This document shows positions 33,172 through 57,578 of a stretch of 64,000 nt of DNA, piece by piece. How positions within the stretch are numbered: position 1 is the first letter of the stretch; the number at the start of each line of letters is the position of its first letter. The notes beneath the pieces are model-generated. The model saw nothing but the letters and a program-made list of their open reading frames with translations, had not been told where the DNA came from and did not search any database. Source of the DNA: Sphingomonadales bacterium 12-68-11 (GTDB taxonomy: Bacteria; Pseudomonadota; Alphaproteobacteria; Sphingomonadales; Sphingomonadaceae); assembly GCA_002279825.1 (NCBI GenBank), contig NCCV01000002.1:43148-107147 (forward strand), read 5' to 3'. The translations under genes were made by a program, and so were the position numbers.

Positions 33172-33188
33172 CGGATCGCCTCGAGGCT

Positions 33189-33917
33189 TCAACCGCGTCC
33201 GAGGAACGGCAGCTTGTTCTGCACCACCAGGCCTTCGTAGAAGTTCAGGTGGTCGGGGATGTCGGCCATGTGGACGATCACCGAGGCGATATCCATCGGA
33301 TCCGCGCTCATGTCGTCCGCCAACTTGACCGCGCCGGGAGCGATTTCGGTGGCGACGATGCCGGGATGGAAGATCGACAGCGCGATGTTGTGCTCGCGCC
33401 CGTCGATCGCGAGCGAGCGGGTCAGCCCGTCGAGGCCCCATTTGCTGGCGGCATAGGCCGGGCTGTGCTGGCGCGGCACCCGCGCCGAGATCGAACCGAT
33501 GTTGATGATCCGGCCGCGGCCCCTGCCTTTCATCACCCGGAACGCGGCCCGGCTGCAGAGGAAGGCGGAGGTCAGATTGGTTTCGATCACGCGGTTCCAC
33601 AGCTCGAGCGCCATTTCGTCGACCGGGGTGCTGTCGGCGATGCCCGCGTTGTTGATGACCACATCGACGGTGCCGAAGCGCGCCACTGCTTGGTCGAACA
33701 GGTTCTGCACCGCGGCCTCGTCGGTGACATCGGTGGGGACGGCGAGCGCCTGGCTGCCGAGAGCCTCGATCTTCGCCACCAGCGCCTCGAGCCGCTCCGC
33801 ACGCCGTGCCGCCAGAACCACGCGCGCGCCCTTCTGCGCGAAAGTCAGCGCGCAGGCCTCGCCGATCCCCGAACTCGCGCCGGTCACCAGGGCCACACGG
33901 CCCGCCAGAATGCTCAC
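33189..33917 (-). CDS. SDR family NAD(P)-dependent oxidoreductase
   Basis: 242 residues starting at GTG 33917 (VSILAGRVALVTG) with AGGGGAAG as ribosome site. The Rossmann motif is VTGASSGIGEA, with NNAGIADS and the active site Ser in NIGSISARV plus YAASK. The open frame runs 65 codons further upstream through the tRNA remnant and is not used. This is the last chromosomal gene before the island junction. Confidence 0.9.
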   Translation of the reverse strand: MSILAGRVALVTGASSGIGEACALTFAQKGARVVLAARRAERLEALVAKIEALGSQALAVPTDVTDEAAVQNLFDQAVARFGTVDVVINNAGIADSTPVDEMALELWNRVIETNLTSAFLCSRAAFRVMKGRGRGRIINIGSISARVPRQHSPAYAASKWGLDGLTRSLAIDGREHNIALSIFHPGIVATEIAPGAVKLADDMSADPMDIASVIVHMADIPDHLNFYEGLVVQNKLPFLGRG

Positions 33918-33985
33918 GTTGGCTTCCCCTCTCAGTGCCGTCGTCTGAGCGGATCGCCTAGACGCGCTGGTCGTCGAGGGAAAGG

Positions 33986-34032
33986 TGGTGGACGCACTTG
34001 GGCTCGAACCAAGGACCCGCTGATTAAGAGTC
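33986..34032 (-). other. 3' half of a tRNA-Lys(CUU) gene: probable left attachment site of the island
   Basis: Read on the minus strand, this is a tRNA from the anticodon loop to the encoded CCA. The loop CTCTTAA carries anticodon CTT; it is followed by TCAGC, a GGGTC variable region, a perfect T-arm (CTTGG-TTCGAGC-CCAAG), the acceptor strand TGCGTCC, A and CCA. The 5' half (acceptor, D-arm and most of the anticodon stem) is missing: pairing fails just past GA, near 34032. The rest of the 328-base gap to 34245 holds nothing else I can identify. The intact copy should lie at the island's right end, beyond the window. Confidence 0.75.
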
Positions 34033-34245
34033 TGGCCAAGGACCATTTTTCCAAGTCGTTCCACCCTGTCCGAAATTCTCCAAGCGTGTCTTGAGAGAGT
34101 GGAGTAAAGCACGGAAATAGATGAAATTATTTTCAGCGGGTCTCTTCCGAGTTTGTCCCGAAGAAGCTACTTTCGTCCCGTGTCGACCACCTCATTTTGT
34201 GAACCCATAGGGAACCCATAGCAAGCAGCAAGGAGCACTAGATCG

Positions 34246-35532
34246 ATGGATCGTGGGCTTACCAAGGCCGCACTCGAGGCTGCCGCCATCCGCGCCCGCG
34301 AGTCGCTTGAGCGGATCGAACTTCGAGACGACCGAGAGCCGGGTCTGAGGTTCCGGGCGGGCGAGCGGTCGGCGGGCTGGTCGTTGCTGGTGCAACTGAA
34401 GACCGGCCAGCGCAGTCGCGTCAAGCTCGGGACTTGGCCGGGCATGGGTTTGGCCGAGGCTCGCGTTGCTGCACGCGATACCCGCACCCGAATCGACAAG
34501 GGCGGGGACCCGAACGCCGAGAAGCGGGACGTCGCCAAGCAGGCGGCGCGCGAAGCGCGCAATCGGATCACACTATGCGAAGTGCTCGACACCTACGAGA
34601 CGCTGGTGCTGGCGACGCATCGCAAGGGAGCTGAAACAAGGCGTGCGCTCGATGGCAAGAAGGGGCTTCTTACTTCGCTCCGTACGAGACGACCGACTTC
34701 GATCACACGGCAGGAGATCGTCGACCTTGTCCGGAAGGGCGCGCGTACCGCGCCGATCGCCGCCAATCGCAAGCTTGCCTACGCCTCGGCGTTCTTCAAC
34801 TGGTGTGTCGACCAGGGCATTCTCGAAACCAATCCAGCCGTCAAGATACGCAAGCCGGGCCGCGAGAACGTGCGCGACCGGTTTCACACGCTGGCAGAGC
34901 TGCGCGAAATCTGGGCGGCGGCCGGCACACTCGGGTATCCATTCGAACAGATGTTCCGCCTGCTGATCGTCTTGCCCAACCGGCGGGACGAGATCGCCTC
35001 GCTGCCCCTTGCAGAATTGACACTCGGAAATGTGGCCGAGCCGTTCGACGAGGCCGTGTGGGTGCTTCCGGCTAGCCGGACGAAGCGGGCCAATGCGCTT
35101 CGGATACCCCTGTCGCCGCTAGCTCGTGAAATCCTGATCGCGGCCATCCATCATCCCGACCGCCCGAAGGATTCTAAGCTGGTGTTCACCACGACCAGCG
35201 AAACACCGATATCGGGCTTCGCCAAGGCGCGGCGGCGACTCGATTTGGCGATTGCGCGAGCACGACAGGATCTAGCGAGCGCATCCGGGGAAGATCTCGA
35301 TGCCTGCGAAAACATGCCTCACTGGACCGTTCACGATTTGCGGACCACGTTCAACACGCACGCCTGTGAGATTCTTGACGTTCCCCCACATGTAGCGGAC
35401 CGCATTCTCAATCATGTCGCTACGGCAACGCGTTCCAAGGTCATGCGAGTATATAACAAGTCCGAGCTGTTTGAACCGCGTCGAGAAGCGTTGAATTCGT
35501 GGGCTCACCTTCTCAGGCAGCACGTTCTATAG
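34246..35532 (+). CDS. Tyrosine recombinase/integrase with DUF4102 arm-binding domain
   Basis: 428-residue phage P4-type integrase. Residues about 25-95 are the arm-type DNA-binding domain (PGLRFRAGERSAG, KLGTWPGMGLAEARV), followed by a core-binding domain (FFNWCVDQGILETNPA). The catalytic set is complete: Arg246 in LPNRRDEI, His363 and Arg366 in VHDLRTTF, His390 in ILNHV, Tyr403 in RVYNKSE. It sits immediately beside the tRNA-Lys fragment and reads into the island. AGGAG precedes the ATG by 11 bases. Full length, so probably active. Confidence 0.93.
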   Translation: MDRGLTKAALEAAAIRARESLERIELRDDREPGLRFRAGERSAGWSLLVQLKTGQRSRVKLGTWPGMGLAEARVAARDTRTRIDKGGDPNAEKRDVAKQAAREARNRITLCEVLDTYETLVLATHRKGAETRRALDGKKGLLTSLRTRRPTSITRQEIVDLVRKGARTAPIAANRKLAYASAFFNWCVDQGILETNPAVKIRKPGRENVRDRFHTLAELREIWAAAGTLGYPFEQMFRLLIVLPNRRDEIASLPLAELTLGNVAEPFDEAVWVLPASRTKRANALRIPLSPLAREILIAAIHHPDRPKDSKLVFTTTSETPISGFAKARRRLDLAIARARQDLASASGEDLDACENMPHWTVHDLRTTFNTHACEILDVPPHVADRILNHVATATRSKVMRVYNKSELFEPRREALNSWAHLLRQHVL

Positions 35533-35664: not shown

Positions 35665-36306
35665 CTAGGGCACAAGCTCGCGCTTATGCTCTCCCAAGGC
35701 ATCGAAGATGCGCGAACCGATCAGAGCACCCGAAGCATCAAGCGTCAGCTTGACCGGCTCAAAGCTGCGGTTCTGCCAGTACCAGCCGTGAATGCCTGTG
35801 AACGGTGCGACATAGCGGCCCTGCATGCTGCTTCGCGCCTCGATGCTGTAGCTCTCGGTAAGGTCGGTGCCGCCTTCGAAAGGATGCGCGTGCATGTCGT
35901 AATCGAGCGGGCCGGTCGCCTGCCAACGGAAGGTCATCGCCTTGCCTTGAGCGATCTCGTATTTGAGTTCGATTCCCTCGTAAGGCTGTATCTCGAACTC
36001 CCAGTGATCCCTGGCGCCCGGCTCTGCCGGCGGTGGCGTGTCGCCGAGGGTTAGCACGCCTTCGCGCTGCAGGCCTTTGCGCAGGTAGACGTTCATGCCT
36101 TTCGGATTGGCGATTTCGGTGAGGCGGGTGGCCGTGCCGACGCCGGTGGGATCGATGCCAAACTCGGCGGGCAGGACGAAAAGTACCGTGATGGCGGCAC
36201 CCACTACCAGGGAGGCGGCGCCGCCGATCAGGATGTGACGCGCCGATGGCCGGACGAACTGGACGTCCTCAGTCATCGCTTGGTCAATGGTCGGAATGGT
36301 TGTCAT
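35665..36306 (-). CDS. Transmembrane anchor protein, copy 2 (HupE-linked)
   Basis: 213 residues: a short cytoplasmic N-terminus, one membrane segment (ILIGGAASLVVGAAITVLFV) followed by LPAEFGIDPTGVG, a helical linker, and a C-terminal periplasmic beta domain ending FTGIHGWYWQNRSFEPVKLT. It overlaps the HupE stop by four bases (ATGA). A related protein at 38956-39588 shares the LPAE-IDPTG stretch and the GxHGWxWxNRS motif. No function is established; constant pairing with HupE suggests a partner subunit. It is the last gene of the island's minus-strand operon. Confidence 0.82.
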   Translation of the reverse strand: MTTIPTIDQAMTEDVQFVRPSARHILIGGAASLVVGAAITVLFVLPAEFGIDPTGVGTATRLTEIANPKGMNVYLRKGLQREGVLTLGDTPPPAEPGARDHWEFEIQPYEGIELKYEIAQGKAMTFRWQATGPLDYDMHAHPFEGGTDLTESYSIEARSSMQGRYVAPFTGIHGWYWQNRSFEPVKLTLDASGALIGSRIFDALGEHKRELVP

Positions 36307-36995
36307 GATCCGAAGTACCTCATGAGCTGGTAGCCGGTGAGCACGAGCCCGGCGATGATCAGGACGACGTTCGCTGAGAAAGCGCCCTTCCTGAAGCTCG
36401 GGGTTCCGCGCCACAGGTTCAGCAGCGAAACGACCAGGAACAGCACGATAACCTGACCGACTTCGACGCCGATGTTGAACCCGATCAGGTTGGTCAGCAG
36501 TCCGTTCGGGGACACTTGCAAGGCAATGAGCTTGGTCGCCAGGCCCATCCCGTGACACAGGCCGAAGACGAGCACCGCCAGCTTGGTGTTGATCTGGAGG
36601 CCGATCTTGCGGAAGCCGCCGAGGTTCTCGACGCCCTTGTAGACCACCGACAGGCCGATGATCGCATCGACGACGTAGGAATTGGCGCCCGTACCGAGCA
36701 GCACCCCGAGCAGTAGCGTGGTGGAGTGGCCGATGGTGAACATCGAGACGTAGAGCACCACGTCTTTGAGCCGGTAGAGGAAGAACACCACCCCGATCAG
36801 AAACAGGATATGGTCATATCCGGTGACCATGTGCTTGGCCCCGAGATACATGAACGGGATGAAGGCGGGCCCGTCGATGCTCTCGACGAAGGCCTTGTCA
36901 CCTTCCGCCACGTCATGGGCGAGCGCGGCCACCGAAATCAGCAGCAGCCACAGGCCGGCGAGCTGATAACGCCATTTGGCCAGCAGCGCAGTCAT
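36303..36995 (-). CDS. HupE/UreJ family membrane permease, copy 2
   Basis: 230 residues with a signal-like first segment ending ALAHDVAEGDK, then about six membrane spans. Conserved polar residues in the HupE/UreJ pattern: GAKHMVTGYDHILFLIG, FTIGHSTTLLLG, and LCHGMGLATKL. HupE and UreJ are nickel permeases; this branch may carry another divalent metal. Both ends overlap neighbouring genes by four bases, so cytochrome, HupE and anchor are translated as a block. The paralogue at 39605 is very similar along its whole length. Confidence 0.86.
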   Translation of the reverse strand: MTALLAKWRYQLAGLWLLLISVAALAHDVAEGDKAFVESIDGPAFIPFMYLGAKHMVTGYDHILFLIGVVFFLYRLKDVVLYVSMFTIGHSTTLLLGVLLGTGANSYVVDAIIGLSVVYKGVENLGGFRKIGLQINTKLAVLVFGLCHGMGLATKLIALQVSPNGLLTNLIGFNIGVEVGQVIVLFLVVSLLNLWRGTPSFRKGAFSANVVLIIAGLVLTGYQLMRYFGS

Positions 36996-37462
36996 GCAGC
37001 GCCTCCCGTGGCGGACGCGCCCGGTTCGGGAGTGCTGGCCGGGAAGGCCTGATGGCAGGCGCTGCACACGCTGTAGATCGTGCCGCCAACCTCAAAGATG
37101 GCTTCGGGTTTCTTGTCGGCGGCGGCCTTCTCAGCCTGTTTGCTGATATCGATCAGCCCTTGGCTGAACTGAACCCAGGAAGCTCCACGCTCCGCGGCAT
37201 AAGCATCGCTCTTGAGGAGTTCGCCGAGCTTGCCGAGATCCTCGGCGGCCTTGCGGGTCCGCTCCCATTCGGCATCGTTCTTCGGAACAATGTCGTGATC
37301 GCCGGTCTCATCGCTGATGTACTGGACGGAATCCCAGTAGAGCTTGGCGGTCGGCTGAACCTTGGTGGCCATCAACTCCTTGACGGTCTCGGTCGGCGCG
37401 GCGTTCTGGCCGCAGGCCGAGAGCAGAAGCGCTCCGGCTAGCCCGATGAATTTTGCTTTCAT
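36992..37462 (-). CDS. Cytochrome-c-like lipoprotein with one CxxCH
   Basis: 156 residues from MKAKFIGLAG, with a lipobox (LLLSACGQ) placing it on a membrane facing the periplasm. The body is helical and a single haem motif CSACH lies close to the C-terminus (about residues 135-140), the arrangement of cytochrome c' four-helix bundles. A GGAGAG ribosome site precedes the start; the stop overlaps the HupE ATG. It is present only in the second of the two HupE modules. A redox role near a metal permease is inferred. Confidence 0.8.
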   Translation of the reverse strand: MKAKFIGLAGALLLSACGQNAAPTETVKELMATKVQPTAKLYWDSVQYISDETGDHDIVPKNDAEWERTRKAAEDLGKLGELLKSDAYAAERGASWVQFSQGLIDISKQAEKAAADKKPEAIFEVGGTIYSVCSACHQAFPASTPEPGASATGGAA

Positions 37463-37565
37463 GGCACTCTCCATTTCAATGGCTCCGCTAGGAGCGTCGG
37501 CGGTGTTACGCAGGTTAATTACGGTAATCGGGGGTGACCCAGCCGGGTTACGGGGCAGGCCCAGT

Positions 37566-38897
37566 TCATCGCGGCCATTCCGGGTGCCTGGCATCGATCA
37601 CGAACGGATGGGATGCACGCCCTTGCGCATGGCTCTCCTGCACATGGGGGTGATCGGGCGGTAGGTCGTCGTGGGTATGCGGGACGACGTCAGGATCGCG
37701 AACCGGCCAGATCCACCACGCCAGCACGACGCCGGCAAAGGCCAGGGCTGCGCTAACGCCGAATGCAGCACCCATCCCCAACCGTGCTCCTATTTGACCC
37801 GCGAGCGGATAGGCGATCAGCCAGCACACATGGCTGAGTGCGAACTGGGCGGCGAACAGGGCCGGGCGGTCGCCCGCCTCGCTCGATCGCCGCAGCAACC
37901 GGCCACCGGGCGTAATCGCGGCCGAATAGGCAGCACCCAGCGCGAACCAGCCGCCAAGCAGGCCGAACCAATAGGCGGGTACTCCGTTGAGCGGCCATGT
38001 TAGGGCAAGAAGCAGCAAGGCCGCGGTGAGCACGGCCGCCGCCGCAACCATGATCGTTCGGTCACTCACCTTGTCGAGCAAGCGCGGCAAGAGCAGGGCC
38101 GCGATCATCGAGCCCGCGCCGAAGGCGGCGAGGGTGATCGCAACCTCGGTTTGGCCGCGGCCAAGCGCTTCTCGCACCAGCACGGGTGTGTTGACGATGA
38201 CCATCGCACTGGCGGCTGCGGCTGCGAGCGTCACCGCCAGCAGTCCGCGCAGGCGGGGCGTCTTGAGGTAGATCCGCGCCCCGCGCGTGGTCTTGTCGTA
38301 TATGCCGCCATCGCTGGGCGTCGACTTCGCCTTTGGAAGCACAACGCTCACCACCAGCAGGGCCGAACAGATGAACCCCACCGCCGTGCCGCTGAACAGC
38401 CAATGGAAGTTCATGACGGTCAGCAAGGCGGCCGCGAGGATCGGGCTGGTCAGGGTTTCCATGTCGTAAGCCAGCCGCGAGAGCGACAGCGCTTTGGTGT
38501 AGTCCTTCTCCTCCGGAAGGATGTCCGGGATGGTCGCCTGGAAAGTCGGGGTGAAGCCTGCCGACGCGGACTGCAGCACGAAGATCAGCACGTAGATTTG
38601 CCAGACCTGGTCCACGAATGGCAGCGCGAGCGCGACAAGGGTCCGGATCACGTCCATCGCGACGAGGAAGGTTCTGCGGGGAAGTCGCGACACGAAGGCA
38701 CCCACGACCGGCGCGACGCCGATATAGGCGACCATCTTGATCGCCATCGCCGTGCCCAGCACCGCGCCCCCGTTGGCTCCGGCGATGTCGACTGCCAGCA
38801 ATCCCAACGCGACGGTGGCCAGGCCGGTGCCGACCAAAGCGACGACCTGCGCCAGGAACAAATGCCCGTAAGTGCGGTTCGCGAGGACTGACAGCAT
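37566..38897 (-). CDS. MFS transporter with His-rich C-terminal tail
   Basis: 443 residues, twelve predicted membrane spans, major facilitator superfamily (ALGLLAVDIAGANGG at the start; RLPRRTFLVAMDVIRT as the loop 2-3 motif). After the last span a cytoplasmic tail contains seven His residues (PHTHDDLPPDHPHVQESHAQ), as in NreB-type nickel exporters. It lies between the two HupE-anchor modules on the same strand. Metal export, perhaps nickel or cobalt, is inferred from tail and context. Confidence 0.85.
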   Translation of the reverse strand: MLSVLANRTYGHLFLAQVVALVGTGLATVALGLLAVDIAGANGGAVLGTAMAIKMVAYIGVAPVVGAFVSRLPRRTFLVAMDVIRTLVALALPFVDQVWQIYVLIFVLQSASAGFTPTFQATIPDILPEEKDYTKALSLSRLAYDMETLTSPILAAALLTVMNFHWLFSGTAVGFICSALLVVSVVLPKAKSTPSDGGIYDKTTRGARIYLKTPRLRGLLAVTLAAAAASAMVIVNTPVLVREALGRGQTEVAITLAAFGAGSMIAALLLPRLLDKVSDRTIMVAAAAVLTAALLLLALTWPLNGVPAYWFGLLGGWFALGAAYSAAITPGGRLLRRSSEAGDRPALFAAQFALSHVCWLIAYPLAGQIGARLGMGAAFGVSAALAFAGVVLAWWIWPVRDPDVVPHTHDDLPPDHPHVQESHAQGRASHPFVIDARHPEWPR

Positions 38898-38955
38898 CGC
38901 TCAGGTTTCCTCTTTCTTGAGGAACGGCGCTGGATATCGCGGGGTTGCGGCTCGC

Positions 38956-39588
38956 TCAGACAAGGCGGCGAACTTCGCTGTACTGACCCGAGGTGCGCAA
39001 CGTGACGGTGACCGGTGCGTCGGAGCGGTTGCGCCAGAACCAGCCGTGCTTGCCGTCGAAAGCGGCCACCAGGCGGCCTTCTTCGCCGGTGGATTCTCGG
39101 CCTTTGCCGTAACCATGATAGAAGTCGCGCGGCGCGTTCGGCGGGTCGCCGTGGGTGTCGAAGTTGACGTGCCCGCCCTCGACCGACCAGGCGAACTGGA
39201 TCTGGGCTCCCTTGTTGGCCGTGACCTTGATTTCCGCGCCTTCACCGGGCGCCAGCGTGAGCGTGGTGGTGTCGGATCGCGTATCGGCAGACGGGGCTGG
39301 AGACCCCGTATCGGTCGCGGCGACCACGGCTCCGCTGGCCGCCCGGTCAGCTACGGCGGTCTCAGCCGCGGCATCGAGCGCGGCCTCTTGGGCCAGCTGC
39401 ACTTTGGTCTCGCCCATCTCGGTCATGCCGAGCGCGCGGCCGATGCCCGTTGGATCGATGGCGTATTCGGCCGGGAGAATGACGGCCACCAGAAGGGCGG
39501 CGGCGATGACCGCGGCGATGCCGGTTGCCCCCAGCAACTGGCGGTTGGTGGGCAGGTCCTCGTCCCGCGGGCGTTGTGAGTTGAACAT
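38956..39588 (-). CDS. Transmembrane anchor protein, copy 1 (HupE-linked)
   Basis: 210 residues with one membrane segment (ATGIAAVIAAALLVAVI), LPAEYAIDPTGIG, a long Ala/Thr/Ser-rich linker and a C-terminal beta domain with FDGKHGWFWRNRSDAPVTVT. It is a homologue of the protein at 35665 with the linker rewritten. AGGAG precedes the start, 16 bases after the HupE stop. Together with HupE it makes the first of two modules. Confidence 0.82.
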   Translation of the reverse strand: MFNSQRPRDEDLPTNRQLLGATGIAAVIAAALLVAVILPAEYAIDPTGIGRALGMTEMGETKVQLAQEAALDAAAETAVADRAASGAVVAATDTGSPAPSADTRSDTTTLTLAPGEGAEIKVTANKGAQIQFAWSVEGGHVNFDTHGDPPNAPRDFYHGYGKGRESTGEEGRLVAAFDGKHGWFWRNRSDAPVTVTLRTSGQYSEVRRLV

Positions 39589-39604
39589 CGGAAGCTCCTG
39601 ACGA

Positions 39605-40339
39605 CTAGCTGATGGCGAGGCCCGCCAACTGATAGCCGACCAGCGTGAAGCCGGCGGCCATCAGGGCGGTGTTGGCTGCGAAGGCATGGCGCATGAAGCT
39701 GGCGGTGCGGCGGCAGTAGCCCATGACGATAAGGATCGCGCCGAGCGCGAGCAGCTGCCCCAGCTCGACGCCGATGTTGAAGGCGATCAGGTTCGGCAGC
39801 AGCCCATCGCTCGAGATTTCGAATTCGATGATCTTGGTCGCAAGACCGAAGCCGTGGAAGAAGCCGAATATCAGAGTGGCGATCTTGGTGTTCGGCTGGA
39901 AGCCGAACCATCGCTGGAAGGCACCGAGGTTGTCGAGCGCCTTATAGACGACCGACAAGCCGATGATGGCGTCGATTACGTAGGCGTTGGCGCTGATTCC
40001 CGTCAGCACCCCGAACAGCATCGTGGTCGAATGCCCGATCGCGAACAGGGTCACATAGGCGGCGACGTCCTTCAGTCGGTAAAGGAAGAAGATAACGCCG
40101 AACAGGAACAGCAGGTGGTCGTAACCGGTCACCATGTGCTTGGCGCCGAGATAGACAAAAGGCAGGAACAGTACCCCGCTGCTTTCCTGGATATAGCCCT
40201 TGTCTCCCTCGGCGACGTTATGGGCATAGGCATCGGCAGCGCCGAGAAGCAGCAGGGCCAGTCCGGCCAACGCGAGGATCAGAAATCTTCGCGCTGCCAC
40301 GGTGTTCAAGGTTGGTCTGACAAGCATCGTGTTTCCCAT
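39605..40339 (-). CDS. HupE/UreJ family membrane permease, copy 1
   Basis: 244 residues; a signal-like segment ending DAYAHNVAEGDK, then GAKHMVTGYDHLLFLFG, FAIGHSTTMLFG and FFHGFGLATKI as in copy 2. It starts two bases after the czcA stop (ATG at 40327 is an alternative), so it is joined to the czcCBA operon. By family it moves a divalent metal such as nickel or cobalt; the direction is not determinable from sequence. Confidence 0.86.
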   Translation of the reverse strand: MGNTMLVRPTLNTVAARRFLILALAGLALLLLGAADAYAHNVAEGDKGYIQESSGVLFLPFVYLGAKHMVTGYDHLLFLFGVIFFLYRLKDVAAYVTLFAIGHSTTMLFGVLTGISANAYVIDAIIGLSVVYKALDNLGAFQRWFGFQPNTKIATLIFGFFHGFGLATKIIEFEISSDGLLPNLIAFNIGVELGQLLALGAILIVMGYCRRTASFMRHAFAANTALMAAGFTLVGYQLAGLAIS

Positions 40340-40341: not shown

Positions 40342-44794
<4,453 letters not shown>

Positions 44795-44795
<1 letters not shown>

Positions 44796-46027
44796 CAAAG
44801 AGCCTCCTCGGCCAGATTGGCATAGCGGCCCGTCAGGCGGTCGAGCTCGACCTGGGCCTCGTGATAGCGGCGTGCCGCGTTGACCACCCGCTCGGCTGCG
44901 TTAGCGAGAGTGGTTTGTGCGGCGATGACATCGGCAAAGCTGAAGAAGCCGCGATTGTAGCCGAGACGAACTTCGCGCAGGGTCTGCTCCGCCTTGGGCA
45001 TGACCTGCTGCTGGATGGCTTCGGCTTCGTGGCGCGTTTCTTCGGCTTGTGCGGCGGCGTGATCGATGGCCCGGACTAGGCCGATGCGTTCGACTTCCCG
45101 ATCGGCATCGATCCGTTGCCGGTCGGCCTGGGCTTCCAGTACGCGGGCTTCGGCAAGACGCCGGCCACCCAGCGGAAACGAGACACCGGCGACCAAACCG
45201 ACGTCGCCGGTGCCGATTATCCGCGGGCCCCCCGAGAAGGTGGGATCGCGCACGGCACTTGCGCGGACGACGTCGATCGCGGCATCCGCCCGTGCTCCGC
45301 GCGCCTGATAGACGGCGAGCGCCACAAGCGAGGGTTCGAAGGGGCCGAGGGGGGCGGCCAGATCGAGAAACCTGTCCGCAGGAATGCTCACGCCGTCCGG
45401 AGAGCCACCCCACAAGGCGACCAGTCGCGCCACGGCCGCATCCCGCTCGCGAACGGCCAGTTGCAGATCGACTTCAGCTTCCGCGACGCCGGTCTGCGCA
45501 CGGGTGCCGGCAAAGACCGGGTCGCGTGCTGATGCGACACGGCGGTCGACCTCCTTCTGCAGTTCCTGGGCGATCTCCAGCCGGCGCCGCGCCAGGCCGA
45601 TGGCGGCTTCCGCGGCTTGCGCCCGCACGAAGTGTCGCTGGACGTCGGCGATGAGCTCGAGGCGCTGGGCGAGATATTCGGCTTCGACCACGTCGATGTC
45701 CCGGTCGGCAAGCGCCACGCGGGCTTCTCTCTTCCCTCCGCGTTCGATCCGCTGGCTGTAGGAACCGGTGATCTGGAACTGGTCGTAGAGGTTGCCGATC
45801 GGCGGGCCGAAGTTCTCGGCCGTGACCTCGATACTTGGCGCAGGGCGCAACCCGACGGCGGTACGGCTTGCACGTAGCGCCTCGACCCGGGCCGACACGG
45901 CGGCCGTTTGCGGGGCCGCGTCGAGCGTACGCCGCGCGGCATCGTCGAATGTCAGCTCGGCCTGGGCCCAGGCCGGCGACGGGATGCATATGGCCAACGC
46001 CAATGCCACCCGCAAAGCGGTATGCAT
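44795..46027 (-). CDS. czcC: CzcC-type outer-membrane factor (TolC family)
   Basis: 410 residues with a Sec signal ending SPAWAQAE. Two TolC-type repeats of long helices (LAQRLELIADVQRHFVRAQA and AEETRHEAEAIQQQVMPKAE) and the strand segment LRPAPSIEVTAENFG are visible. It forms the outer-membrane exit of the CzcCBA pump and heads the core of the minus-strand operon, 65 bases after the His-rich peptide gene. Confidence 0.9.
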
Positions 46028-47390: not shown

Positions 47391-48728
47391 GTGCCCCGCG
47401 CCGTCGCGGGCTGGAGCGCTGTCGCACTCGCCGGCCTAGTGTTCGGTGGAGCGCCCGCCGCCGCCCAGGTCAGCACGCCTGGCACTCCCCAGGTTGGCTC
47501 GCCGACGGTCGGACCACCGGCTCCGCGCAATAACTCGGCGGAGAGTGCCACGCTGCCGTTGCTGGTTCCGAGGACGGAGCCGCTGCCAGCCAATCTCACG
47601 CTGGCACGGGCGCTGGAAGAGGCGGAGGCAAGATCCCCGGCAATCGCGGCGGCGGTTGCCAACGTGGCGGCTGCGCGGGGACGGCTTCGCCAGGCGGGTT
47701 TCCGATCAAACCCCGAACTCAGCGTTGAGGTCGAGAATTTTCTCGGCACTGGTGAATTGAGCCGTCTGCAAGGTACCGAAGTGACGGTGGCCGTTAGCCA
47801 GCGCCTCGACTTGGCCGGCCGGCGTCCGGCCCGGCAGGCCGTGGGGCGCGCGGAGCTCACGGTGAGCGAACTGCGGTTGCGTATTGTCCAGGCGGAACTG
47901 GCGCAGGCGGTCAGGCAGCAGTTTGCCGGCGCCGTGGCGGCGCGCGAACGCGTTCGCGTCGCCACCGAGAACGAGGAGCGATTCCGCGAGCTCGCTCGAA
48001 TAGCCGGCATTCTCGTAGACGCCGGGCGCGAACCGCCTCTGCGAGCGCTGCGGGCGCAATCGGCCGCCAGCCAGGCGCGCGCGGAACTGCGCGCCGCCGA
48101 AGCCGAAGATGCAGCCTCGCGCCGAACACTGGCGGCGCTGTTCGGTGTCGAAATCGCGCCCGAGGCGGTGGCCGGCAGCCTGACCGATATCCTGCCGACA
48201 GCAACTTCAAATGTGGAATCGCTCGACGTGCGCCTGGCCAATGCCCAGGTGGCGCTGGCGGAGGCCAATCTGCGGCAGGCGTCGGTCGAGGGGCGCCTGG
48301 ATCCCGCCGCCGGCTTGGGCATCAGGCACATCCAGGCAACGGGCGATCAGGCATTGGTGGCGGGCTTTTCGATGCCGCTGCCGATCAGGGACCGCAACCA
48401 GGGCAACGTGGAAGCTGCGCGGGCCGAAATCCTTGCCGCCGAGGCCGAACGGACAGGCGCAAGGGTTGGGGCAACCGCCCGAATTGCGAACGCTACGGGA
48501 AATCTCAGCGCGGCTTCGGCCCGTGTCGAGGCCCTCGAGGAAGCCGCGATCCCGGAGGGCCGCGAGGCGCTCCGTCTTGCCCAGCTGTCCTACCAGGCCG
48601 GCAAGATCGAACTGATCGAACTGATCGATGCGCAAGCCGCTCTGGCAAGCGCCGAAACCGACCTGATCGCCGCCCGCCTTGCCCAGGCCCAGGCTGCCGC
48701 CGAGCTTGCTCGCGCCACCGCCCAATAA
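47391..48728 (+). CDS. Outer-membrane factor of the second czc operon (TolC family)
   Basis: 445 residues if GTG 47391 is used, which puts a clean signal peptide (WSAVALAGLVFGGAPAAAQ) at the N-terminus with AGGA eight bases upstream. ATG 47247 would add 48 residues unlike a signal. TolC repeats are visible (AVANVAAARGRLRQAGFRSN, and LAQLSYQAGKIELIELIDAQ near the end). It passes metal ions out with the adaptor and RND pump that follow. Confidence 0.85.
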   Translation: MPRAVAGWSAVALAGLVFGGAPAAAQVSTPGTPQVGSPTVGPPAPRNNSAESATLPLLVPRTEPLPANLTLARALEEAEARSPAIAAAVANVAAARGRLRQAGFRSNPELSVEVENFLGTGELSRLQGTEVTVAVSQRLDLAGRRPARQAVGRAELTVSELRLRIVQAELAQAVRQQFAGAVAARERVRVATENEERFRELARIAGILVDAGREPPLRALRAQSAASQARAELRAAEAEDAASRRTLAALFGVEIAPEAVAGSLTDILPTATSNVESLDVRLANAQVALAEANLRQASVEGRLDPAAGLGIRHIQATGDQALVAGFSMPLPIRDRNQGNVEAARAEILAAEAERTGARVGATARIANATGNLSAASARVEALEEAAIPEGREALRLAQLSYQAGKIELIELIDAQAALASAETDLIAARLAQAQAAAELARATAQ

Positions 48729-48738
48729 GGACGTGACC

Positions 48739-49926
48739 ATGGATTTAGATCGCACTGATGACCGCCGGAAACTCTTCGCCGTGGCAGGGGGTATCGCGTT
48801 GCTTGCGGGGGTTGGCGGCCTCCTCATTGGCCGCACAATGGCCGAGCCGACCGCTGCCGAACCTGCGGCCGAAGCCGGGGAGCATGGCGAAGAAGAAGAA
48901 AATGGACCCGAAGGGTTTGTGGCCGTTGCCGCCGAGAACGTCGCCTCGATTGGCATCAAGACCGAAAAGGTAGCCGCTGGCGCATTGGGCTCCGAAATCC
49001 TCGCGCAAGCCACGGCCACCGCTCCGCCGCAGGGTCGCTCATCGGCGACCGCGCGTGCCGATGGCGCTCTGACGAGCATATCCAAGCGGTTGGGCGACGC
49101 CGTCGGCGCCGGTGAGACAATCGCTCTGCTCGAGAGCCGCGAAGCTTCGGCGATAATGGCTGAACGGGCTTCCGCGGCAGCACGCGCACAGGCCGCCACG
49201 TCCGCGCTCAATCGCGAGCGGCGTCTTTTCGAAGAGAACATCACCGCGCGTCAGGACCTCGAGGCCGCGCAGGCCGAAGCCGCCCAGGCTCAGGCCGAGT
49301 TGCGCAGGACCGAAGCCGCCGTCCGGGCCGCAGGGGTCACCTCGGACGGCCGCCACATCGCTGTGCGAAGCCTCATCAGCGGCCGTATCACCAAGATGGA
49401 CGCCGAACTGGGGGCCTTTGTTTCGGCGGGAACGGAGCTATTCGAAATTGCCAATCCCCGCAGCGTCCAGATCGAGGCCGCGGTGCCGTGGGCTGATGCC
49501 CAACGTGTCCGACCCGGCGACCCGGCGGTGATCGAGCTAGGGGGTGGGGAAACCCTGCAGGCGTCGGTCAGATCGACGACGCCGTCACTGGACCCTGAAA
49601 GCCGAGCCGCAACCGTGGTGCTTTCTCCAGCGGGTGTCCCGGCGGGTTTGACCCAAGGTCAGGCGTTTCGCGTGCGGATCACGCCGCGCGGTTCTGCCAC
49701 CGACAGCCGCATCGTCCTGCCGGAAGGCGCCGTGCAATCGGTCGAGGGCCGGGATGTCGTCTTCGTTCAGGTGCGGGGAGGCTTCCAGGCCACACCGGTG
49801 ACCGCGGGCGGACGCAGCGGTGGCCGTATCGAGATTCTCGAAGGTCTCAAGCCGGGTGCGGTGGTGGCGACCGAGGGCGCGTTTGTCCTGAAATCGCAAC
49901 TCGGCGCCAGCGAGGCGGAGCATTGA
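48739..49926 (+). CDS. Periplasmic adaptor of the second czc operon
   Basis: 395-residue RND membrane-fusion protein. One N-terminal membrane segment (LFAVAGGIALLAGVGGLLIG) is followed by an acidic linker (EAGEHGEEEENGPEG), a hairpin of long helices (AERASAAARAQAATSALNRE) and beta-barrel domains (ALTSISKRLGDAVGAGETIA, SLISGRITKMDAELGAFVSA). The start at 48739 has AAGGA. The architecture matches CzcB/CnrB-type adaptors rather than the lipoprotein adaptor at 43557. It is followed by a 106-base gap with nothing visible. Confidence 0.9.
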   Translation: MDLDRTDDRRKLFAVAGGIALLAGVGGLLIGRTMAEPTAAEPAAEAGEHGEEEENGPEGFVAVAAENVASIGIKTEKVAAGALGSEILAQATATAPPQGRSSATARADGALTSISKRLGDAVGAGETIALLESREASAIMAERASAAARAQAATSALNRERRLFEENITARQDLEAAQAEAAQAQAELRRTEAAVRAAGVTSDGRHIAVRSLISGRITKMDAELGAFVSAGTELFEIANPRSVQIEAAVPWADAQRVRPGDPAVIELGGGETLQASVRSTTPSLDPESRAATVVLSPAGVPAGLTQGQAFRVRITPRGSATDSRIVLPEGAVQSVEGRDVVFVQVRGGFQATPVTAGGRSGGRIEILEGLKPGAVVATEGAFVLKSQLGASEAEH

Positions 49927-50032
49927 TCCGCGACCATCAAGTCTGCCGATGCGACCGCCAGACGTACGAGCCTGCTCGCGTCACCACCGATAACGCCCGG
50001 GCTCCGAGCCTCGGCCGACCAGGAATGAGTTC

Positions 50033-53000
50033 ATGCTAGACCGTCTTCTTGACGCTGCCATTCGCTTCCGCTGGGCGGTGATCGCACTGACCTTGCTCGT
50101 GGCTGCCTACGGGGCCTTCCAGCTCCTGCGCCTGCCGATCGACGCGGTGCCGGACATCACCAACAAGCAGGTGCAGATCAACACGCAGGCGCCCGCTCTT
50201 GGGCCGCTCGACATGGAGCGGCTTGTCACGTTCCCCGTCGAGACCGCCATGGCCGGCATTCCCGGTCTCGAAAGTACGCGCTCGATCTCGCGCAACGGCT
50301 TCAGCCAGGTGACGGTGATTTTCGAAGACAATCTCGACATCTTCTTTGCGCGCCAACAGGTGGCCGAGCGGCTCAACCAGGCACGCGAAAGCCTTCCCGA
50401 AGGCGTGGAGCCGCAAATGGGTCCGCTTTCGACCGGGCTCGGCGAAATCCTCATGTGGACCGTCGATTACAAGCGACCGAACTCAACCAAATCCCCGACG
50501 GTCGCGGGGCGGCCGGGATTTCAGCCGGATGGCTCGTTCCTCACGCCCGAGGGCGAGCGGCTGACGACTGATGTGCAGAAAGCAGCTTACCTGCGGACGC
50601 TCCAGGATTGGGTCGTCAGGCCGCAGCTGCGCAGCGTCGAAGGCGTTGCCGGCATCGACTCGATTGGCGGATACGAGAAGCAGCTCGTCGTCCAGCCTGA
50701 TCCGAGCCGGATGGCGGCTTACGGCGTCTCCTTCGCGGAGCTCGCCGAAGCGCTCGAGCGGGCCAACATTTCGGTCGGGGCTAACTTCGTGCAGCGCGCC
50801 GGCGAGGCGTTCCTAGTCCGCGCCGATGCCCGCATCCGCACCGAGGACGAAATTGGCCGCACCGCCATCGGCACGCGCGGCGGTGTGCCGGTATTGGTCC
50901 GCGATGTCGCCACCGTGCAAAGCGGGGGCGACCTGAGGACCGGCTCCGCTTCGATGAACGGGCAGGAAGTAGTCGTGGGCACAGCGCTCATGCTGCTCGG
51001 CGGCAATAGCCGCATCGTCGCGCAGGACGTGAGCGAGCGCCTTACGGAAGTATCTAGGGCGATGCCCCCCGGCGTCGAAGTCAAGGTGGTCTACGACCGC
51101 GCGGCGCTCGTCGACGCGACGATCGGCACCGTCGAGAAGAACTTGCTTGAGGGCGCGATCCTGGTGGCCGCGGTCCTGTTCTGGCTGCTCGGTAACATTC
51201 GGGCGGCGATCATCGCCACGCTCGTGATCCCGCTCTCGTTCCTCTTTATGGCCATCGGCATGAACCGTTTCGGCGTCTCGGGAAACCTGATGAGCCTCGG
51301 CGCGCTCGACTTTGGACTGATCGTCGACGGGTCGATCATTATCATCGAGAACTGCCTGCGGCGACTGGCCGAACGGCAGCATCATGAAGGCCGGCTGCTG
51401 ACCTTGTCTGAGCGCCTGCATGAAGTGTTCGAGGCGTCCAAGGAGATGATCCGTCCGACCATCTATGGCCAGGCGATCATCCTGCTGACCTTTGCACCGC
51501 TGCTCACCTTTACCGGTGTCGAAGGCAAAACCTTCTCGCCGATGGCGATCACGGTCATGCTGGCGCTGGTCGGCGCTTTCATCCTCTCGCTGACTTTCGT
51601 GCCCGCGATGGTGGCCGTTCTGATCCGCGGCAAGGTCGCGGAAAAGGAAGTGAAAGCGGTCGCTTGGTATAAAGCGCGGTACGAGCCGGTTCTTCGCCGC
51701 GTCGTACTGCGGCCCTGGCCCTGGATAGGCGCGGGTCTCGCGACCCTGGCCGCGGCCTTCCTCATCTTCCAGACGCTGGGCCGTGAGTTTATCCCGACCC
51801 TCGATGAGGGCGATCTCGCGATGCAGTCGCTGCGCGTCCCCTCCACCTCCCTCGAACAGTCGACCAAGATGCAGTTGGCCGTGGAGCGGGCAGTCTCAAG
51901 CCTGCCCGAGGTCGCCTACGTCTATTCGAAGACCGGCACTGCCGAAGTGGCTTCGGACCCGATGCCGCAGAACGCGTCCGACGCCTTCATCATTCTCAAG
52001 CCGCGCGCTCAATGGCCGGAGGGGGTGGACAGCCGCGAGGACATTCTCGAACGGATCGACGGGAAGCTGAAAGGCCTCGTGGGCAATGCGTACGAGACAA
52101 GCCAGCCCATTGAGCTTCGTTTCAACGAGCTGATCGCCGGCGTGCGCGGCGACATTGCCGTGAAGATCTTCGGCGATGACATGGATGTGCTCAACCGCGT
52201 CGCCGGACAGGTCGCTGCCGCGATGAGCGGTGTCGAAGGAAGCGCGGACCTCAAGGTCGAGCAGACCGAAGGCTTCCCGACGCTGGAGGTGCTCTTCGAT
52301 CGCGAAGCCATCGCAAGGTATGGTCTGGCGATGGAGGACGTTACCGATACGGTCGCCGCGGCGCTCGGCGGGCGCGAGGCTGGTCTGGTGTTCGAGGGCG
52401 ACCGGCGGTTCGACATCATCGTTCGACTTGCCAACTTCAACCGCGACAATCTCGACGTGGTCGGCTCGCTTCCCGTCATGCTTCCGGAGGGAGGCTCGGG
52501 CGTCGGCACGTCCGTGCCGCTACGCGAACTGGTCACCTTCCGAACTTCGGAAGGGCTGAACCAGGTCAGCCGTGAGAACGGCCAGCGGCGCGTCGTCGTT
52601 CAGGCCAATGTGCGGGGACGAGATCTCGGTTCCTACGTCGACGAGGCTCAAGGCAGGGTAGCGAAAATCCAGCTGCCTCCAGGGGTGACGATCACCTGGG
52701 GCGGTCAGTTCGAGAACTTGCAGGCGGCCTCGCAGCGGATCGCGCTCATCGTTCCCGTGGTATTCCTGTTGATCTTCGGCATCCTGTTCCTGGCCGTGCG
52801 CAACCTGCGTTCCTCGCTTGCGGTCTATTCGGCAGTGCCGCTCGGACTCGCCGGCGGCGCGTTCGGGCTCGCACTCGCGGGCCTGCCGTTCTCGATCTCG
52901 GCGGCGGTTGGCTTCATTGTGCTGTCGGGTGTGACGGTGCTCAACGGCCTGGTCGTCATGACCAGCGTTCGTCAGCGGATCGATGCAGGCCGTCCGGTCG

Positions 53001-53284
53001 ACGAAGCGATCATCGAAGGCACCTTGGAACGCGTACGGGCGGTGCTCATGACGGGCATTGTGCCCGCGATCGGGTTTGTGCCGATGGCCATCGCTACCGG
53101 CCGGGGCGCAGAGGTCCAGAAGCCGCTCGCCATTGTGGTCATTGGCGGCCTGATCGTCGCCACCTTCATGACGCTCTACGTGCTCCCCGCGATTAGCCAC
53201 CTGATCTTGCGGAAGCGCGGTGAGAGCCATCCGCCAGGCGACTTCGATGAGGTGGCTCCGGTTGCTGAACCCGTATCCGTCTAG
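50033..53284 (+). CDS. czcA: CzcA-type heavy-metal RND efflux pump of the second czc operon
   Basis: 1083 residues, HME-RND family. The motif [15 protein letters not shown] gives Asp426, Asp432 and Glu439, equivalent to the essential trio of CzcA. Compared with the first CzcA it has an insertion near residues 148-185 (KRPNSTKSPTVAGRPGFQ) that shifts numbering by 24, a mark of the CnrA/NccA-like branch. AGGAATGAG lies before the start. Substrates are divalent cations by motif; which ones is uncertain. Confidence 0.93.
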   Translation: MLDRLLDAAIRFRWAVIALTLLVAAYGAFQLLRLPIDAVPDITNKQVQINTQAPALGPLDMERLVTFPVETAMAGIPGLESTRSISRNGFSQVTVIFEDNLDIFFARQQVAERLNQARESLPEGVEPQMGPLSTGLGEILMWTVDYKRPNSTKSPTVAGRPGFQPDGSFLTPEGERLTTDVQKAAYLRTLQDWVVRPQLRSVEGVAGIDSIGGYEKQLVVQPDPSRMAAYGVSFAELAEALERANISVGANFVQRAGEAFLVRADARIRTEDEIGRTAIGTRGGVPVLVRDVATVQSGGDLRTGSASMNGQEVVVGTALMLLGGNSRIVAQDVSERLTEVSRAMPPGVEVKVVYDRAALVDATIGTVEKNLLEGAILVAAVLFWLLGNIRAAIIATLVIPLSFLFMAIGMNRFGVSGNLMSLGALDFGLIVDGSIIIIENCLRRLAERQHHEGRLLTLSERLHEVFEASKEMIRPTIYGQAIILLTFAPLLTFTGVEGKTFSPMAITVMLALVGAFILSLTFVPAMVAVLIRGKVAEKEVKAVAWYKARYEPVLRRVVLRPWPWIGAGLATLAAAFLIFQTLGREFIPTLDEGDLAMQSLRVPSTSLEQSTKMQLAVERAVSSLPEVAYVYSKTGTAEVASDPMPQNASDAFIILKPRAQWPEGVDSREDILERIDGKLKGLVGNAYETSQPIELRFNELIAGVRGDIAVKIFGDDMDVLNRVAGQVAAAMSGVEGSADLKVEQTEGFPTLEVLFDREAIARYGLAMEDVTDTVAAALGGREAGLVFEGDRRFDIIVRLANFNRDNLDVVGSLPVMLPEGGSGVGTSVPLRELVTFRTSEGLNQVSRENGQRRVVVQANVRGRDLGSYVDEAQGRVAKIQLPPGVTITWGGQFENLQAASQRIALIVPVVFLLIFGILFLAVRNLRSSLAVYSAVPLGLAGGAFGLALAGLPFSISAAVGFIVLSGVTVLNGLVVMTSVRQRIDAGRPVDEAIIEGTLERVRAVLMTGIVPAIGFVPMAIATGRGAEVQKPLAIVVIGGLIVATFMTLYVLPAISHLILRKRGESHPPGDFDEVAPVAEPVSV

Positions 53285-53307
53285 GTGAGCATCTCAGGAG
53301 AGCAGAG

Positions 53308-55779
53308 ATGACCGAGCACGTACGGCTGGATCTGCCGGTAATTCTTCCCGAAGTTCCGGTTGAGGCTGATCGCTGTGTCACTAGACTGCTCGCCGAGCTT
53401 CGTGGTCGAACTGGCGTGTCCGACGCCCACATCGTCGGCGCGACAGCGACCGAGCCGGCGAAGCTTTGCGTCCACTACGATCGAGAGACGATCAGTCTCG
53501 CCCGCATCCGCGAGCTTGCGCATGCGGCCGGCGCAAGCCTGACCTCCCGGTTCGGGCATCTTCTGTGGCAGGTAGACGGGATTGAGCACCAGCGCCGCGC
53601 GCGCACGGTGGCGGAGCACCTCAGCCGGCTCTCCGGCGTCGTCGAAGCAGACGCCACTGCGAGTGGGACGGTTCGGGTCGAGTTCGATCGTGAGGTGGTT
53701 GATGAGGCGCGTATCGAAGCGGCCCTGGCAAAGCTCGATGTGCGAAAACGTTCCCTACCGACCGTCGCGCCGGCTGCGCAGACAGCCCCCGCGGCAACGC
53801 GCGAAGATCACGATCATCAATCGGAAGGACACGCTCACGGCGGCATTCTTGGCCCGAACACCGAGCTGATCTTCGCCCTCGTATCCGGCGCATTCCTCGG
53901 CATTGGCTTTTTGCTCGAAACACTTTTCGACGTACCCGCCGGGCTGCTGACCGTCTTGTATGGTGGCGCTTACGGATTTGGCGGGTGGTTTACTCTCCGC
54001 GAGGCCATCGACAATCTGCGTCTCAGGAAGTTTGAAATCGACACGTTGATGCTGGTCGCGGCTGCCGGCGCGGCGGCGCTCGGCGCGTGGGCCGAAGGGG
54101 CGTTGCTGCTATTTCTGTTCAGCCTCGGCCATGCGCTTGAGCACTACGCGATGGGGCGGGCGAAGCGCGCGATCGAAGCGCTCGCGGAGTTGGCGCCGCA
54201 GACCGCGTTGGTTCGGCGCGGCAACGAACTTGTCGAGGTCGCGGTCGAAACCCTCGCGATCGGCGATATTGTTGTGGTCAAGCCCGACGAACGCCTCCCG
54301 GCAGACGGCTTCATCATCAAAGGGACGAGCAGCGTCAATCAGGCCCCGGTCACCGGCGAGAGCATGCCCGTCGACAAGCGGCCGGTGCCCGACGACGCCG
54401 AGGCTCGGGCGCGGCCCCAATCGATTGACGCCGTCTATCGGGTGTTCGCGGGGACGATCAACGGCAGCGGACTCCTAGAAGTCGAGGTCACCCGTAAATC
54501 GACCGAGACCACGCTCGCCAAGGTCGTGCAGTTGGTCAGCGAGGCGGAGACGCAGAAATCGCCAACGCAGCGGTTCACCGACCGGTTCGAGCGGATATTC
54601 GTGCCCTCGGTGCTCGCGTTGGTGGCACTGTTGCTGTTTGCCTGGGTCGTGGTCGACGAGCCGTTCCGCGACAGCTTCTACCGTGCGATGGCCGTGCTGG
54701 TGGCAGCAAGCCCGTGCGCACTAGCCATCGCGACGCCGAGCGCCGTCTTGTCAGGAGTTGCGCGGGCCGCCCGGGGCGGTGTGTTGATCAAGGGCGGCGG
54801 ACCGCTCGAAGAGCTGGGGTCGCTGAAGGCCATCGCGTTCGACAAGACCGGCACGCTGACCGAGGGGCGGCCTCGCATTACGGATGTCGTGCCCGCCGCC
54901 GGCATCGCTGAGCAGGAGCTGCTGGCGGTCGCGGTTGCGGTCGAGCGGTTGAGCGATCATCCGCTCGCGCGCGCCATTGCGAGCGACGGCATCGAGCGGC
55001 TCGGCGGGCGATCGGTGCCGACGGCGACCGATCTCGCAAGTCTGACCGGCCGCGGGGTCACGGCGAAGATTGCCGGCGAGACAGTCCTGATCGGCAAGGC
55101 CGAGATGTTCGGCACGGACGGTACTGACGCGCTCTCTCCCCAGATGACCCAGGCCATTGCCCGTCTTCGCGACGGGGGGCGAACGACGATGGTCGTTCGC
55201 CGGGGTACGACCGATCTCGGCGCAATTGGGTTGATGGATACCCCCCGGGCGGAGGCGAGGGAGGCGATCGCCCGTATTCACGCGCTCGGCATAACCCGCA
55301 TGATCATGATCTCGGGCGATCACCAGAAGGTCGCCGAAGCCATCGCCAAGGAAGTCGGGCTCGACGAGGCTTGGGGCGACCTGATGCCCGAGGATAAGGT
55401 CGAGGCCATCCGCAAGCTTCGCGCGACGGACAAAGTCGCGATGGTCGGCGACGGGGTCAATGACGCGCCCGCCATGGCCAGCGCGACGGTGGGGATCGCC
55501 ATGGGGGCAGCCGGGTCGGACGTCGCGCTCGAGACTGCCGATGTCGCCTTGATGGCCGACGATCTGGCGCACCTTCCCTTCGCGGTTGGGCTAAGCCGCG
55601 CGACGCGGTGGATCATTCGCCAGAATCTCGTGGTCAGCCTGGGCGTCGTCGCGCTGCTCGTCCCCGCGACGATCTTCGGGCTCGGGATAGGGCCGGCCGT
55701 CATAGCGCATGAGGGTTCCACCCTACTGGTGGTGTTCAACGCCCTGCGCCTGCTGGGCTATCGGGAGGCTACGCGATGA
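53308..55779 (+). CDS. P1B-type metal-transporting ATPase, P1B-4-like
   Basis: 823 residues. Phosphorylation site DKTGTLTEG (Asp512), metal-site SPC at 468-470, His551-Pro552, hinge GDGVND (714-719). The last span has HEGST (801-805) before NALRLL, the signature of P1B-4 ATPases that export Co, Zn, Cd or Fe. The N-terminus contains two ferredoxin-like domains without the usual CxxC, then a His cluster (residues 168-177, HDHQSEGHAH). It moves metal from cytoplasm to periplasm, feeding the RND pump encoded just upstream. AGGAGAG precedes the start. Confidence 0.92.
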   Translation: MTEHVRLDLPVILPEVPVEADRCVTRLLAELRGRTGVSDAHIVGATATEPAKLCVHYDRETISLARIRELAHAAGASLTSRFGHLLWQVDGIEHQRRARTVAEHLSRLSGVVEADATASGTVRVEFDREVVDEARIEAALAKLDVRKRSLPTVAPAAQTAPAATREDHDHQSEGHAHGGILGPNTELIFALVSGAFLGIGFLLETLFDVPAGLLTVLYGGAYGFGGWFTLREAIDNLRLRKFEIDTLMLVAAAGAAALGAWAEGALLLFLFSLGHALEHYAMGRAKRAIEALAELAPQTALVRRGNELVEVAVETLAIGDIVVVKPDERLPADGFIIKGTSSVNQAPVTGESMPVDKRPVPDDAEARARPQSIDAVYRVFAGTINGSGLLEVEVTRKSTETTLAKVVQLVSEAETQKSPTQRFTDRFERIFVPSVLALVALLLFAWVVVDEPFRDSFYRAMAVLVAASPCALAIATPSAVLSGVARAARGGVLIKGGGPLEELGSLKAIAFDKTGTLTEGRPRITDVVPAAGIAEQELLAVAVAVERLSDHPLARAIASDGIERLGGRSVPTATDLASLTGRGVTAKIAGETVLIGKAEMFGTDGTDALSPQMTQAIARLRDGGRTTMVVRRGTTDLGAIGLMDTPRAEAREAIARIHALGITRMIMISGDHQKVAEAIAKEVGLDEAWGDLMPEDKVEAIRKLRATDKVAMVGDGVNDAPAMASATVGIAMGAAGSDVALETADVALMADDLAHLPFAVGLSRATRWIIRQNLVVSLGVVALLVPATIFGLGIGPAVIAHEGSTLLVVFNALRLLGYREATR

Positions 55780-56261
55780 TCGAAGCTGAAAACGACATCC
55801 AGCTCGCTTCCTCGTGGGACACGGTCTGGCGAACGTTGACCGATTTCAAGCACTACAAGGCCTGGCATCCCTACAACCGAATAGAGGGTGCTGCCGAGCT
55901 CGGCAGCAAGATCGACTATACCTATTTCAGCACGCTGATCGGGCCCCGGTCCCTCCACATTCCCGGACGCATCACTCGCCTCGAGCCCGGAAGGATTCTC
56001 GAATGGCGCGTGGGCTTCCGCTTCGTGTTCATCTTCACCGAGACCTATACCTTGGAGCCGGCGAACTATGGCACGCACCTCGTCCACCGGATTGAGTACC
56101 GCGGACTGGGCGCCACCTTCAATCGCAAGCGAGCCGGTGGCCATGCACGGACTTTGATCAGCAAAATCGATGCCGCCCTGGCCAGATATCTCGCCCCCTC
56201 TGCTGCACGCCCGCGACTTGGGAAACCGAAGATGGCCGGCAGCAAGAGCCGTAAACGCTGA
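55776..56261 (+). CDS. SRPBCC-fold protein
   Basis: 161 residues of the START/polyketide-cyclase-like fold: MIEAENDIQLASSWDTVWRT, FKHYKAWHPYNR, SKIDYTYFSTLIGP, and LEPGRILEWRVGF followed by THLVHRIEYRG. Such domains bind small hydrophobic ligands. Its ATG overlaps the ATPase stop by four bases, so it is translated with the pump, but no metal-related role is known. The tail is basic (GKPKMAGSKSRKR). Confidence 0.8.
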   Translation: MIEAENDIQLASSWDTVWRTLTDFKHYKAWHPYNRIEGAAELGSKIDYTYFSTLIGPRSLHIPGRITRLEPGRILEWRVGFRFVFIFTETYTLEPANYGTHLVHRIEYRGLGATFNRKRAGGHARTLISKIDAALARYLAPSAARPRLGKPKMAGSKSRKR

Positions 56262-56391
56262 CGTTGGATGGGAGATACTGACCTTCCGAGGACTGGCCAA
56301 GACTCGGCGCCGGCAGGCGCAGTCAGGAAGCCCACAGCATCGGTTTCGCCAAAGCTGTCTACGATCAACAGCATGCCAGGATGAGACCGTG

Positions 56392-56994: not shown

Positions 56995-57057
56995 GGATAT
57001 TCAAACACCGGCCGGATCGCCGTCTTCCGGTTGAGCTGACATCGCATCCGGTCCGAC

Positions 57058-57474: not shown

Positions 57475-57539
57475 GAAAACCTCCCTGCGCAAGCGTCAGC
57501 GACCGCTCACCTTGTTGCGAGCCGTTCGTAAGAAAGCGC

Positions 57540-57570
57540 TTGATCCTCTAGTCACTGGAGGTTGTAAAGC
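57540..57570 (+). promoter_or_regulatory. MerR-type promoter and dyad operator of the CDF-FTR1 operon
   Basis: TTGATC (57540-57545), a 19-base spacer and TAAAGC (57565-57570). The spacer carries CTCTAGT-C-ACTGGAG, a 7-base inverted repeat with one mismatch. The overlong spacer with a dyad inside is the hallmark of promoters activated by MerR-family DNA distortion. Initiation would fall around 57577, one or two bases before the ATG at 57579, so the mRNA may be leaderless. Confidence 0.75.
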
Positions 57571-57578
57571 CTCCCCCC

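Follow-up and report, generated by a model that had tools for sequence, protein, structure and literature searches.

The window analyzed here is a 64,000-nucleotide stretch of contig 2 (43148-107147) of the Sphingomonadales bacterium 12-68-11 assembly, which comprises 2.87 Mb in 9 contigs. On the minus strand, positions 34032-33986 correspond to nt 30-76 of a tRNA-Lys(CTT), a span that runs from the anticodon stem through the CCA (GACTCTTAATCAGCGGGTCCTTGGTTCGAGCCCAAGTGCGTCCACCA). The T-arm of this tRNA half is perfect (CTTGG-TTCGAGC-CCAAG), and the CCA is encoded. ARAGORN called no tRNA anywhere in the window, and Rfam returned no tRNA match in 33000-36000; both programs were silent at the half because half a gene falls below their models. 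The half is preceded on the left by a short-chain dehydrogenase gene and followed on the right by a tyrosine recombinase gene and a long run of metal efflux genes (Table 1). Features beyond the window are given in extended-window coordinates (contig position minus 43147), which continue the window numbering rightward.

Table 1 Features at the tRNA-Lys(CTT) half and across the right part of the window.
Feature	Coordinates	Strand	Pfam models and remarks
Left flank: short-chain dehydrogenase gene	33189..33917	minus	PF00106; adjoins tRNA-Lys(CTT) in relatives
Left att core: tRNA-Lys(CTT) 3' half (nt 30-76) + 3 bp	33983..34032	minus	50-bp exact repeat
Putative arm-type integrase site TGTGAACCCATAGGGAACCCATAG	34198..34221	plus	24-bp exact match; second copy at extended-window 130519-130542
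Tyrosine recombinase (integrase), 428 aa, intact	34246..35532	plus	PF13356 arm-binding domain, PF22022
Two HupE/UreJ-type genes, MFS transporter, small genes	35665..40339	minus	PF13795, PF07690
Metal-type RND efflux operon (pump, membrane fusion, outer membrane)	40342..46027	minus	PF00873, PF16576, PF02321
Second RND operon, P-type ATPase, SRPBCC, cation efflux protein	47391..58232	plus	PF02321, PF13437, PF00873, PF00122, PF10604, PF01545
FTR1 permease and start of cus-type efflux operon	58775..63620	plus	PF03239, PF02321, PF16576, PF11604

The tRNA-Lys half falls within a perfect direct repeat of 50 bp, with one copy at 33983-34032 and the other at extended-window 130615-130664. The right copy (contig 2 173762-173811) lies on the same, minus strand, 96,632 bp rightward, and sits within a complete tRNA-Lys(CTT) gene called by ARAGORN. 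A preliminary description of the window had recognized the half, from the anticodon loop to the CCA with a perfect T-arm, and had predicted that an intact minus-strand tRNA-Lys(CTT) sharing the same repeat would be found beyond 64,000. The whole-genome search bore out both the reading and the prediction, and the repeat extends 3 bp past the interval originally delimited (33986-34032). The contrary outcome that had been envisaged, an intact tRNA-Lys with no matching repeat bounding the island, was not what we found, as the 50-bp repeat bounds the segment. In the whole assembly, a 45-mer of the tRNA-Lys half occurred at no more than two sites even with up to 3 mismatches allowed, the right one at contig 2 173765-173809, and GACTCTTAATC was found genome-wide only at the same two sites; chance was therefore excluded. 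From these searches, tRNA-Lys(CTT) appears to be a single gene in this genome.

DNA of the left flank matched sequences near tRNA-Lys at 72-83% in five other genomes (G001, G004, G005, G018 and G019), and the chromosome resumes to the right of the intact tRNA-Lys(CTT). In G019, which belongs to another genus of the same family, both flanks aligned at a spacing of just 261 bp, and one tRNA is present; the segment that separates them here was therefore inserted. In the congeners G001, G004 and G005 an EF-G-like gene intervenes, and the distance between these flanks is ~2.3 kb. Because this gene separates the flanks, the congeners offer no exact empty site, and the precise pre-insertion site is unseen within the genus. 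In G003 the EF-G-like gene adjoins the dehydrogenase gene, and no match to it was found in the genome of the window itself. The EF-G-like GTPase of G001, G004 and G005 is ~690 aa and is encoded between the dehydrogenase and tRNA-Lys. Together, the alignments indicate that the flanks belong together and that the 96.6-kb segment is extra. The features by which tRNA islands are recognized in Islander (PMC4383910) were found at this locus: an intact tRNA at one end, a displaced 3' fragment in the same orientation and on the downstream side at the other, an integrase gene within the segment, and an island-free site in a relative, here G019, with no exact empty site in the congeners. An element to the left of the tRNA half was also considered and was ruled out by orientation and flank synteny.

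The integrase, which matches arm-binding and central domain models, is encoded by an intact open reading frame, the ATG of which lies 213 bases past the repeat. Alignment with five relatives showed no variation at the candidate catalytic residues R247, K280, H363, R366, H390 and Y403; the catalytic domain model PF00589 did not match the integrase, and these residues are assigned from the alignment only. A scan of named genomes identified relatives with 57-66% identity in Sphingopyxis, Sphingobium and one sphingomonad MAG. The same tRNA-Lys half was present 207-241 bp upstream of the integrase in all six close relatives, and no intact tRNA was found at any of these six loci. All 18 displaced halves, from 13 genomes that form a non-random set since several were found via the integrase, start at tRNA nucleotide 30, 31 or 32, which places the crossover at the anticodon loop. 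In many tRNA islands the integrase lies beside the intact tRNA. Here it adjoins the displaced half and the intact tRNA is 96 kb away; in G017, G018 and G022, too, an integrase is found beside the displaced half. A search of the genome for a second related functional integrase yielded a remnant only. Rows of tRNA-Lys(CTT) copies and halves were observed in G022 (contig 1 802141-1025051) and G033 (contig 2 398213-414117), with the T-stem variants CTTGG, CTAGG and CCAGG, and G022 has apparently two complete tRNA-Lys(CTT) genes. Through insertion, lineages may be exchanging 3' halves of this tRNA.

Both ends of the segment carry a further exact match. The 24-bp motif TGTGAACCCATAGGGAACCCATAG is located inward of each att core, at a distance of 165 bp on the left and 72 bp on the right, and its 21-bp core occurs only twice genome-wide within 3 mismatches. 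The relatives have different tandem repeats in a similar layout upstream of their integrase. We interpret these repeats as putative arm-type integrase sites. Next to the right end is a small HTH_17 (Xis-like) gene (130136-130336).

The left part of the segment is dominated by genes for metal efflux. The RND operon on the minus strand has 74-75% DNA identity to CusA/CzcA-annotated genes of Sphingobium and Blastomonas plasmids, and the cus-type operon that begins after the FTR1 permease gene runs past the end of the window. By family assignment, the left part also encodes, up to ~79 kb, P-type ATPases, a multicopper oxidase, CopB, CopC and CopD. We infer that the cargo is Ni/Co/Cu-type efflux and confers metal resistance. 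An ECF sigma factor, FecR and a TonB receptor are encoded in the middle of the element. Searches against plasmids returned only partial similarity, in cargo and transfer genes, and no near-identical element. Within the HupE/UreJ-type genes at 36611-36910 and 39916-40215, which are 3.3 kb apart, a 300-bp stretch is 72% identical, and the pair is, judged from the sequence, an old local duplication.

The right part of the segment encodes conjugation functions. An RlxS relaxase gene was identified at 111682-113640 (887.5 bits; cut-off 850), and TraG, TrbE and TrbB likewise scored above their family cut-offs (1130 against 674, 1372 against 1020, and 401 against 305, respectively), as did TrbJ, TrbL and TrbG above theirs. 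Genes for TrbC and for VirB3-type and VirB8-type proteins are present, and TraG together with trbBCDEJLFGI runs to 129905. A relaxase (RlxS), a coupling protein (TraG) and a type IV secretion system (trbBCDEJLFGI), the components expected of an ICE, thus all lie between the att sites.

Candidate regulators are encoded in the same part of the segment. There are one LuxI and two LuxR proteins, and an FseA-type protein (93268-94068) in which PF20109 (DUF6499) and PF10074 (DUF2285) occur in a single ORF. Directly before traF lies a gene for a 90-aa HTH_17 protein (95528-95800) that is RdfS-like by domain and position. Other products of this part are a TraF-like peptidase, a transglycosylase, a Toprim protein, ParB-like, SSB and zeta-toxin-like proteins, and a STAND-type protein that had no match in PADLOC. 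There is also a gene for a type IIG restriction-modification protein. This gene and its neighbor (114419-118170) are 88.8% DNA-identical to a Mameliella alba plasmid and the remainder of the element is far less close, which suggests that the type IIG region is a separately moving defense module.

These results indicated, with high confidence, that the tRNA half marks the left boundary of a 96.6-kb ICE inserted at tRNA-Lys(CTT) through an anticodon-loop crossover. The element is probably self-transmissible, as judged from its gene content, and probably carries Ni/Co/Cu-type efflux as cargo. The preliminary description had proposed integration into a tRNA 3' half, and this is supported by the repeat, the orientation of the intact tRNA and flank synteny in relatives. 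It had also noted a complete tyrosine recombinase after the half, which the intact reading frame confirms, and had called every gene to the right accessory, which holds up to 130,614, with the flanking chromosome resuming at the tRNA. Its term metal-resistance island was too narrow, since the complete conjugation module makes the element an ICE; about two thirds of the element lies outside the window, where that description could not see it.

In this reading, recombination by the integrase on entry joined attP to the chromosomal tRNA-Lys(CTT) gene through a crossover at the anticodon loop. The 3' half carried by the element thereby completed the resident 5' half, so that the right end now bears a whole tRNA gene, and the resident 3' half was displaced to the left end at 33983-34032. 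We infer arm-site function, excision, transfer and regulation as follows. The integrase would bind the arm-type repeats inside both ends (34198 and 130519) and, with the RdfS-like and/or the Xis-like helper, recombine the 50-bp cores to give a 96,632-bp circle arranged as trb operon - xis - attP - int. This circle would then be transferred by RlxS, TraG and the Trb system. By analogy with ICEMlSym(R7A), the LuxI/LuxR pair and the FseA-like activator probably gate excision and transfer.

Although the element is now bounded as a unit, it need not have arisen as one. It is quite conceivable, if somewhat short of an even chance, that two tandem islands at tRNA-Lys(CTT) have fused, the left contributing the living integrase and the metal genes and the right the conjugation genes and a decayed integrase. 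A deletion would have taken the middle att site, so that the outer att pair now bounds the whole; such an origin refines the ICE reading more than it opposes it. A C-terminal remnant of a related integrase does lie at 79627-79803 (contig 2 122774-122950), directly after the metal genes and in the same orientation. It comprises the last 59 aa, is 59% identical and has His where the catalytic Tyr is expected, yet a lone remnant is equally explained as a captured fragment. Similarly, GC content is ~0.64-0.66 up to 68 kb and ~0.70 from 68 to 76 kb, but this shift near 68 kb falls away from the remnant. Tandem arrays of tRNA-Lys halves are known in G022, G033 and G063, whereas no inner tRNA half is left inside this element. 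The remnant and the tandem halves in these three genomes suggest a fusion of two islands, though short of proof. As a general model, offered a little more tentatively still, sphingomonad tRNA-Lys(CTT) ICEs might grow by tandem insertion with later deletion of the inner integrase and att site, which would fuse a cargo island to a conjugation backbone and keep the outer att pair. In the integrated element the xis-like gene and the integrase are 96 kb apart, and they would come together only in the circle (xis - attP - int).

Whatever its origin, the element could be a relic that entered as an ICE and no longer excises or transfers. The identity of the two cores is compatible with this, as it fits any recent insertion, but the reading frames of the integrase, relaxase, TraG and trb genes run unbroken across their family models. 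The two att cores and the two 24-bp motifs are intact as well, and we consider a relic unlikely. A chance or duplicated origin of the tRNA half, with no relation to the integrase, is refuted by the presence of the same half upstream of the integrase in all close relatives examined and by the concordance of repeat, orientation and flank synteny.

With the 96.6-kb ICE as the preferred reading, a metal-resistance ICE is now defined by its exact ends, its size and its machinery, and a 47-base clue has become a testable mobile element. The results also suggest that tRNA-Lys(CTT) is an integration hotspot used repeatedly in this bacterial family, and the tandem arrays at this gene could reveal how ICEs acquire cargo.

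Known elements resemble this ICE to differing degrees. The PAPI-1 / ICEPae1161 family of Pseudomonas includes an ICE of ~100 kb in a tRNA-Lys gene, with 48-bp repeats, the integrase at one end and mercury resistance as the cargo of ICEPae1161 (PMC6945700), and the element described here carries metal cargo too. In ICEPae1161, int and a ParA operon occupy opposite ends (PMC6945700); here, the end away from the integrase holds trbI, a DUF2274 gene and the HTH_17 gene, and no ParA operon was identified there. The conjugation genes are of the trb/RlxS type, which places the element outside the PAPI-1 / pKLC102 family. Islander tRNA islands (PMC4383910) have a restored tRNA and a displaced 3' fragment at their ends and an anticodon-loop crossover, as here, and may form tandem arrays in which each member has its own fragment and integrase; there is no essential difference from the present element.

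In the ICEMlSym(R7A)-type ICEs found in Mesorhizobium, the backbone consists of the trb genes, traG, rlxS, traF, msi107 and rdfS (PMC8627217), and their regulation proceeds in the order TraR - FseA - RdfS (PMC10359603). The present element has in common with them (PMC8627217, PMC10359603) trbBCDEJLFGI, TraG, RlxS, TraF and the transglycosylase (msi107), and likewise LuxI/LuxR, a two-domain FseA-type activator and integration into the 3' part of a tRNA; the RdfS-like 90-aa protein is a candidate counterpart of RdfS. DUF736 (msi110), listed as universal in the Mesorhizobium elements, had no Pfam match among the proteins scanned, a set that included only part of the small ORFs. The two differ in target, which is tRNA-Lys(CTT) here and tRNA-Phe in the ICEMlSym(R7A)-type, and in cargo, which is metal efflux here and symbiosis genes there. 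In addition, the FseA-type protein is encoded in one frame here, whereas a programmed +1 frameshift joins DUF6499 and DUF2285 in ICEMlSym(R7A). Literature searches, the coverage of which was incomplete, returned no description of an ICE at tRNA-Lys in sphingomonads. The element is a new instance of a known ICE and tRNA-island kind, in a sphingomonad-type tRNA-Lys(CTT).
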